Source: Enchytraeus crypticus (Eukaryota; Annelida; Clitellata; Enchytraeida; Enchytraeidae). From it: a stretch of 64,000 bases of DNA. The notes below the pieces were generated by a model that saw nothing but the letters and a program-made list of their open reading frames with translations, was not told the origin of the DNA and ran no database searches. The stretch covers positions 3,247,717 through 3,311,716 of the forward strand of contig CAJHZI010000533.1 in NCBI GenBank assembly GCA_905160935.1. The letters run 5' to 3'. The position numbers were made by a program, and so were the translations under genes. Shown piece after piece: positions 13,501-16,500 of this stretch. The stretch's first letter is position 1, and every line of letters starts with the position of its first letter.

Positions 13501-16500
13501 GCATAGGCTGCAGTGCAGCCTTTTGTGTGAAAAAACAGTTTTCATTATGTGTCTTAATTTAAAGTTTGTTTTAATTTAGTTTAAATGTGCTATATTACTT
13601 TCATTTTTAGTTTCAATGTATGATTTAAATTGTTAAATTTTCCAATTCAGTTTAAGATGAGTTGTCTTTATCTTCTTCATCATCTCCTCTGACAACTGAG
13701 TTTGCATTGTTAACTACTACTAGTTTACTAAACACTGGCAATTGTGTAAATAGTTGTGGGTACAGAAATTACATATTAGTTACATATATATATATATATA
13801 TATATATATTAGTACTACATATTAGTTTCTATATATATTGCATATTAGTTTCTATATATATTACATGTTAGTTTCTATACATATTACATATTAGTTTCTA
13901 TATATATTACATATTAGTTTCTATATATATATATACGACTTACTTATCAAGTTAACTGGTGAGTACAGTTATTCCCGTTGACTCTCTTGAAGATATTATC
14001 TCTCCCCCCTCTCCCTCTCGCTCCTCCTCTCTCTCTAGCAATTTTGTCAATTAGCAAGACCAAGTACAATTTGTGTAATTTTTTTAATATTTAAAAAATT
14101 TTTTTTTGATATAATATTAACATTGACTGGCTGACTATTCTTCAGGGTCCAATATCGCCAGTCCTGTCAGATAACGGCAGCTCTCAGTTCTCGCTGAACT
14201 CTCTCAGCGCTCAGGAGAAGCGGCGCAGCATACAGGAGCAACTGGAGCTGCTGCTGCATGCTCATCAGTGTCAGCGCAGAGATCAGCAGCTGCTCGGCCA
14301 CGCTCAGTCTAATGGCATAGTGCAACATTGCAACTTACCAAAGTGTTCTTCCATGAAGCAGATTCTTAAACATATGACGAAGTGTCAGGAGGGCAAGTCT
14401 TGTAAAGGTATGATACGCTTGATGCTATAGTTTTATTTTAAGTATTATTTTAAATTTACAGGAGCGCAAATCTTTTAAAGATATCATAAGCTTAATGCTA
14501 TGGTTTTATTTTAAGTACTATTTTAATTTTACCTGAGTGATATGACGGTAGTAGATGTACATATACATGTATTAATAGTTGACTGAATTCAGATATGTAT
14601 GCTTTATTGAGATATGTATGCTATATTGATTAGAAGATTGATCTAGACAAACCTTCTTCACCGGGTAGATCTCTGTACTTGAATGTGTGTCGATATTTTG
14701 TCTAACCAATGATTTCTGAGTGGAACGCTCAAACGTTATGAACAAAAGCAGAAGTCGCTGTTTGAATTAATAATGAAATGAAATTTCTGTGTTTTTGTTG
14801 TAGTTGGTAACTGTGCGATGCTTCGTAAGATCATCATACACTGGAAGAGCTGCACTGAGGCCGAGTGTCCCATATGCTCTCCCGTTCGCACCGCCTCATC
14901 TTTGAAGCGCAGCCACAGTGGCACTGCCATCAACACCTGCGGCATCAACAGCAGCGTCGCTGGCACTGTCATGTCCAACGCCAGCCAATCGTCGCTGAAT
15001 CCTCTCTCAACGTCTGACAGCGTCTTCTCCCGGCTCTCCGGAAGAGTGGATAGCGGGACGTTTGGCTGTGGATCTAGCAACGATGGCGCAGATTCTGCCG
15101 CTCCAAGCCGATCTGACATGAAGAGAACGTACGAGACTCTCGGGATTGATCCCGTCAACGAGCGACTGCATCCCGTGCCAACGCTGGGCCACATCGGCGT
15201 CACGGCTTTACCGCTTTCTGGTGCCGGGGACGGCTCAACTGCAGACGGTGTGGGCGGTGATAATGGAGGAGTTCGAGGGGCGAAAGAGTGGCACAAAACA
15301 GTGGCACAAGATCTGAGGAATCATCTCGTTCATAAACTGTATGTTCTCTTCTATTTTGCAGTTCTTGCTTCTGTACTAAGATAATTATGAAGTATTTTTT
15401 TCGATTAGTATCGAAATTAGCATGAGTGTGACTACTCATGCTAATTTCGATACTAATCGAAAAAAATACTTCATAATTATCTTAGTACAGAACTTAGTAC
15501 AAGAACTGCAAAATAGAAGAGAACATACAGATACCTATTATGTTACAGTCGCCTATTATGTTGTTTTAAAGAATGTATTAATCAATTTTTAATTATCAGG
15601 TGCGATTTAAAAATTTGTCTTCCGGATCTTTTAAGTTATTACAAAGATTTTCAAGATTTTATCCAGTTGTTTAGCATAGTCTTTTAAATTTCTAACGGTA
15701 TTTTAGTTCTTATAGTTAACTTTTTTGTTGGTTTTGAATGGACAATTTTATTGTTGTTCCATACAAGTTACATCTATTCTGGCCTAATTTTGTGCAATAT
15801 ATGTTTAATAACTAAGACATTTTTATTTTATTCCCATGTCCAATGTCATATGATATATGTTTTGCTGGTATATAATTTGGGTTTAACACATTACAAAGTT
15901 TAGCTAATTTTTTGCTCTGAATCATAACATGTTACTGAAGCTAAGTATGATTTTTTCTTTCTTTATATTAATTACATTTTGTAATCTTGATTGATGTTTT
16001 TTTGACAGAGTTCAGGCAATATTTCCCACCCCGGATCCAATGATGCTGAAGGACCAGAGGATCAGTAATCTTGTTCAGTATGCTCGCAAGGTGGAGGGTG
16101 AAATGTTCGATTTAGCGACTTGTAAAGTAAGAAAGGCTTTTGTGGATTTTTTCACTGCTGAGTACTGCAAGTAGTGAGTGTAAAGTGGTCTGATATAAGA
16201 TGTGTGTAGGATTTATAATATAGAACTGCTTCATTCTTTTGTAGTTTACAAAACGGGTAGTTTGAATTCTGATTGTAGAAAGAAAGCTCAATGAATTGAG
16301 CTGAATGGTCTCTACTGTTTGTTAATTATTTTCTTTTATATCGTTATTATATTATGACTATTAGAATACTGTGGATGGTGTGAAGTTCATATGACCAAGA
16401 GGTTATGGAATGGTGAAGATTTACTTGGAATAATATAGTAACATGAAATCAGCATGCAGCTGGTTAGTAAATATTACATAAAACGCACTAAATTGATTGT

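Follow-up and report, generated by a model that had tools for sequence, protein, structure and literature searches.

A nearly perfect hairpin over a splice donor of a CBP/p300 homologue, probably the product of a single local inverted duplication

How did a long and nearly perfect hairpin come to start at the border between an exon and an intron of a CBP gene, and does its position on the splice donor matter to that gene? The hairpin lies in the window, by which is meant the whole stretch of DNA that was analyzed, the final 64 kb of contig C440; the genome searched comprises 524,188,772 bases in 802 contigs, and the exon borders of the CBP gene were derived from sequence and homology (table 1). 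The original prediction offered three explanations, namely control of splicing, a substrate for ADAR and a young inverted duplication. The last of these is the best supported, by the single copy of the hairpin, by the absence of substitutions in 90 pairs and by the conserved left edge.

The predicted near-perfect inverted repeat of about 91 bp with a 6-nt loop was found as described. A left arm of 91 nt and a right arm of 97 nt are separated by the loop, and the arms pair without any mismatch over two stretches, 59 nt (15369-15427 with 15434-15492) and 31 nt (15337-15367 with 15500-15530), both 100% identical in the pairing sense. The single internal difference between the arms is at C15368, which faces seven bases (15493-15499) and thereby accounts for the greater length of the right arm; there are no substitutions in the 90 paired positions. 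The seven-base insert, CTTAGTA, together with the two bases following it, is a repeat of the neighbouring CTTAGTACA. The stem starts 2 nt inside exon 5, whose end at 15338 is placed by sequence and homology, and it extends over the GTATGT donor, which agrees with the original prediction. The hairpin far exceeds chance expectation. The RNA fold of positions 15317-15560 has an energy of -139.6 kcal/mol, compared with -40.6 +/- 4.61 kcal/mol for shuffled sequences (z -21.5; 0 of 200 as good), and in 20 simulated order-1 sequences of 64 kb, with the dinucleotide make-up of the window and loops of up to 200 nt, the maximum length of a perfect arm was 11-14 nt. Within the 64-kb window the arm has no second occurrence, the next best match being 13 nt.

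Table 1. Features of the CBP locus and of its hairpin, in window coordinates (a slash marks an exon/intron border)
Feature	Position	Strand	Basis
CBP exon 5, 535 nt, ends in KIX codon Leu CT/A	14804..15338	+	Acceptor TTGTAG; start read by eye
5' splice site GTATGT of intron 5, in the base of the stem	15339..15344	+	Sequence, fold
Intron 5, 670 nt; position and phase shared with human CREBBP and the six other KIX loci	15339..16008	+	Sequence, homology
CBP exon 6, 118 nt, middle of KIX	16009..16126	+	Sequence, homology
Left arm, taken as the original: last 2 nt of exon 5 and first 89 nt of intron 5	15337..15427	+	Arm pairing; CT/GT in seven of seven KIX loci
Loop GTGACT	15428..15433	+	Sequence, pairing, fold
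Right arm, taken as the inverted duplicate	15434..15530	+	Arm pairing; hairpin at one place in the genome
CTTAGTA insert in the right arm, replaces 1 base expected from the left arm	15493..15499	+	Arm comparison

Judged on its KIX, TAZ and Creb_binding domains, the gene is a homologue of CBP/p300. The joined exons match the Pfam KIX family (E 3.6e-34) and the CBP chains of the PDB (E about 1e-38), and the TAZ and Creb_binding domains are encoded in a later frame. A search of the genome with the KIX family gave 10 matches, and the middle KIX exon was located at seven places, the window and six others. These seven CBP-like KIX loci, which share their exon structure, lie on contigs C646, C379, C739, C750, C391 and C421 and in the window (L040-L048). 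They amount to an apparent expansion of CBP/p300 in what is probably an annelid worm, counted here as loci and not as working genes. The mitochondrial contig points to an annelid: COX1, identified by family match, contains 12 TGA codons, AGA and AGG stand at positions where Ser is usual, and the gene order, read by eye apart from COX1, is ND1-ND3-ND2-COX1-COX2-ATP8-COX3-ND6-CYTB, which corresponds to the annelid ground pattern.

The position of intron 5 can be compared with that in human CREBBP, where the splice variants c.1824-1G>C and c.1941+5G>A flank an exon of 118 nt; the same table lists Ala631, Tyr632 and Asp639 (PMC11825781). Counting back from these three residues on the aligned CBP KIX, the human codon c.1822-1824 is Leu608, split CT/N as in the window, and exon 6 of the window, also 118 nt, is found at the same codon as the human exon. 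In this genome, all seven KIX loci have CT/GT at the end of exon 5, and at each of them base 118 of exon 6 is followed by GT. Since intron 5 has the same position and phase in human CREBBP and at the seven KIX loci, it is, on these homologies, old.

The same comparison bears on the direction of the event. Because the CT/GT edge is kept at all seven loci, the donor edge would predate the hairpin, so that the left arm is taken as the original and the right arm as its copy, with the limit that CT/GT fixes the edge and not the other 87 intron bases. No comparable hairpin was found in the scanned parts of the introns at the six other KIX loci, a scan which covered at most 1,500 nt of each (the longest intron, 2,639 nt, was covered in part). 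A perfect inverted repeat of at least 12 nt is absent in five of these six introns, and the remaining one contains a single repeat of 12 nt. The minimum free energy of the first approximately 250 intron nucleotides is -32.6 to -55.9 kcal/mol at the six other loci versus -140.3 kcal/mol at the window locus. The six introns do not align with that of the window (best E 0.05); therefore, these loci cannot stand for the sequence before the event and were rejected as its representatives. No second allele or haplotig free of the hairpin was found in the genome, in which the DNA of exon 5 (query from one base before 14804) matches once.

Taken together, the hairpin is probably a recent, single and local inverted duplication generated by template switching during replication, the mechanism, its direction in time and the switch points being those that we infer. 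In this scenario, replication would have run along intron 5 and past the loop, whereupon the growing strand would have jumped to the complementary or nascent strand and been extended in reverse as far as the border of exon 5, before synthesis resumed in the intron. The outcome would be the reverse complement of the first 89 or so intron nucleotides and of two exon bases, placed directly downstream of them. A second slip of the polymerase during copying of the right arm could have produced the CTTAGTA insert as a repeat of its neighbour. A copy of 91 nt exceeds the short template-switch events that are usually discussed. The feature by which such an event is recognized, a reverse-complement copy of adjacent sequence at a single locus, is present here. 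According to the available part of PMC8794818, template switching can generate perfect stems in one event, and in great apes the commonest switch patterns leave single inverted repeats, as far as the accessible text of PMC7954356 goes.

The absence of substitutions in the 90 pairs suggests that the origin is recent; a rule-of-three estimate from 0/90 places the divergence of the arms below approximately 3.3%, and later correction between the arms could conceal a greater age. The coincidence of the arm edge with the exon boundary, which the original prediction called unusual, is real, but its weight is judged to be modest: the chance that an edge falls no more than 3 bases from the border within a 670-nt intron is of the order of 1% by a rough estimate, for a coincidence noticed post hoc, and template switching offers no explanation for it. 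The last matching bases (CTG/CAG) could be due to chance or microhomology, and the left edge is old exon/intron sequence. Among the matches listed in the open literature, judged by titles and the openings of abstracts, the locus is undescribed; it is a new locus with a known kind of copying error.

What, then, does the hairpin do to the donor? The donor is paired in the most stable fold, and opening it in the full stretch costs 13.2 kcal/mol when the right arm is present, as against 4.6 kcal/mol when it is absent. In folding terms, the burial of the donor that had been proposed is borne out. In growing transcripts the cost is 0.6-4.8 kcal/mol for the tested 3' ends from 15433 to 15521 and 11.3-14.4 kcal/mol for those from 15529 to 15553; the block is thus predicted to be real but late, the donor staying open until approximately the last 8 nt of the right arm have been made. 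At a Pol II speed of 1-4.6 kb per minute, the range given in the available part of PMC7404189, the transcription of about 185-190 nt would leave U1 roughly 2.5-11 s to bind before the donor closes. As the donor pairs late, U1 would have a head start, and splicing of this one CBP copy may be slowed modestly at most; the completed stem would later compete with U1 for the donor. The accompanying claim, that masking of the donor would alter KIX, is unsupported, and a frameshift or an early stop would be expected instead. Because exon 5 is 535 nt long, its skipping would shift the frame, and a transcript retaining intron 5 would run into a stop 15 codons beyond the donor. For these reasons failure of the donor would lead to loss of product, and an altered KIX is unlikely. 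The hairpin is most likely tolerated and near neutral, perhaps slowing the splicing of one CBP copy. A loop-length rule for 5' splice sites, reportedly formulated by Eperon in 1988, was not used as evidence.

A stronger role would be that of a functional splicing switch, in which the hairpin controls access to the intron 5 donor and helicases, ADAR or the speed of transcription set the spliced output. The cost that the right arm adds to the opening of the donor is in keeping with such a role, as are the ADAR-type domains encoded in the genome and the six further KIX loci, which could make a lowered output tolerable; moreover, stems that mask the donor affect how MAPT exon 10 and SMN2 exon 7 are spliced, according to the accessible part of PMC11802352. 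However, all six other KIX loci are without such a hairpin in their scanned parts, the hairpin is apparently recent and single, so that there is no conservation to invoke, the donor is paired late in transcription only, and the alternative products would be frameshifted or truncated. A switch of this kind is therefore unlikely. Editing of the stem from A to I is plausible, since the genome has coding sequence for ADAR-type deaminase domains, with 16 matches on five contigs, and the stem would offer approximately 90 bp of double-stranded RNA to ADAR. Two of the ADAR-domain pieces, C332:737-1507 and C356:1777357-1778097, have identical scores and may represent a haplotig that was not collapsed or else a recent duplication.

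There is a somewhat slimmer chance that the template switch installed a copy-specific splicing brake in the expanded CBP family, a race of U1 against the closure of the 90-bp stem. If that were true, the output of CBP would be tunable by transcription speed, helicases or ADAR, the last pairs of the stem being those that cover the donor. Even without such a brake, the locus is a clean example of a very strong RNA structure placed on a splice donor in an important gene family by what is probably one copying error. If the intron is spliced normally, the locus offers a natural test of co-transcriptional U1 binding versus RNA structure; if it is not, the birth of a splicing control could be observed. 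Controls are already present in the same genome, namely the six further KIX loci, which have the intron at the same position.

An assembly or sequencing foldback is an improbable source of the hairpin. Contig C440 itself starts with a palindrome of 15.4 kb, whose arms are 99.95-100% identical (C440:1-15420, centre 7710/7711; L013, L033); this palindrome is probably an assembly foldback, and such errors thus probably occur in this assembly. At the CBP locus, however, the sequence goes back to unique intron, and then to exon 6, without a change of strand, for which two switches would be needed, the arms differ by an indel, and the hairpin is situated about 48 kb inside the contig end.

It is more improbable still that the hairpin is a foldback MITE or an Introner-like mobile element, one end of which happens to carry the donor. 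Palindromic repeats do occur in families in this genome, and the terminal 22-mer has 29 hits when as many as 3 mismatches are allowed, versus 8 for the reversed control, an excess that stays unexplained and speaks mildly against template switching. On the other hand, only the two arms are exact among these 29 hits, one other has 2 mismatches and 26 have 3, and at the six of the 27 non-arm loci that were scanned (L004-L009, one partly masked) no hairpin among those listed lies at the match. A search that skips very common words, and whose repeat counts are lower bounds, gave a single candidate for the whole hairpin in the 524,188,772 bases, namely the hairpin itself. This search can detect hairpin families, since a control hairpin from elsewhere on C440, at a distance of 1.86 Mb (L020:2206-2515), returned at least 114 matches, with the best 40 of 236 candidates scored. 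The CBP hairpin belongs to no detectable repeat family or MITE. Its edges (AAA / ATA) show no target-site duplication, and the ancient intron, found at seven loci, was not newly gained as an Introner would require. A mobile element was rejected on these grounds of copy number, edges and intron age. A nested intron (stwintron) was also rejected, as deleting 15339-15530 leaves no GT beside the exon.

Single-copy hairpins are not unique to CBP in this genome, because a sampled hairpin with 130-bp arms at 93.8% identity and an 80-nt spacer (L021:7199-7538) also has one candidate place, itself; copy number was determined for three hairpins besides that of CBP. A further one with an AT-repeat core (L005:1655-1918), which came from the 22-mer hits and not from the sample, has six candidates on five contigs. 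The sample consisted of 19 stretches of 10 kb, 17 from C440 and two from C795, in which 7,569 of 190,000 bases are N, and the hairpin scan covered 29 sequences (the window, the 19 sampled stretches and nine other loci), with ungapped arms of at least 20, loops of at most 300 and low-complexity arms dropped. The window has repeats of its own. A palindromic repeat at 18997-19258, with relatives at 22522-22644, 29656-29771 and 60380-60513, is 82.6% identical to its own reverse complement and has no match to the CBP hairpin. A 62-bp tandem duplication at 29290-29407 has a unit in which an acceptor-like TTTGCAG is followed by possible exon sequence, and longer tandem arrays are located at 40079-41214 (unit 17 bp), 42847-43761 (32 bp), 53751-54092 (21 bp) and 24091-24617 (25 bp).

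About 90 nearly uninterrupted pairs are unlike a normal animal pre-miRNA. Least probable of all is a source of small RNA, either a young hpRNA or a miRNA precursor within the intron: the stem is long and perfect, several Rfam miRNA families give small E-values (best 7.7e-14), and miRNA loci have been proposed, in the available part of PMC8794818, to have been founded by template switching, yet none of the 19 Rfam matches reaches the gathering score of its family, the matches span many unrelated families on both strands, as for a generic long A+T-rich stem, and with no second genomic place for the hairpin its guides would mainly match their own intron. A known RNA family was accordingly rejected for the hairpin, nothing being over the Rfam threshold.

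Read as a probable product of template switching, the CBP hairpin can be set beside four known systems. The hpRNA loci of Drosophila are similar in that a long hairpin arises from inverted sequence, as described in the accessible parts of PMC10317233 and PMC10292708, whereas the CBP hairpin is known from DNA alone and its own intron is its sole known target. Introners and foldback MITEs share with it the inverted repeats, the intronic location and an edge at a splice site (PMC9860276, as far as its available text goes). Unlike these elements, the CBP hairpin occurs at one place, lacks a target-site duplication and is located in an ancient intron.

Known donor-sequestering hairpins are short stems. 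Those of MAPT exon 10 and SMN2 exon 7 have, like the CBP hairpin, the 5' splice site paired in a stem, in the part of PMC11802352 that is available. The CBP stem differs from them in its length of about 90 bp and in its late closure during transcription, and its effect is predicted by folding only. Compared with other hairpins generated by template switching, it is longer than is typical, falls on a splice donor and is without an ancestor for comparison. On the other hand, the RNA hairpins attributed to template switching and the events found in great apes, as presented in the accessible parts of PMC8794818 and PMC7954356, have the same reverse-complement copy beside its source, the same perfect stem and the same short loop, and the extra change in the right arm is consistent with complex copying.
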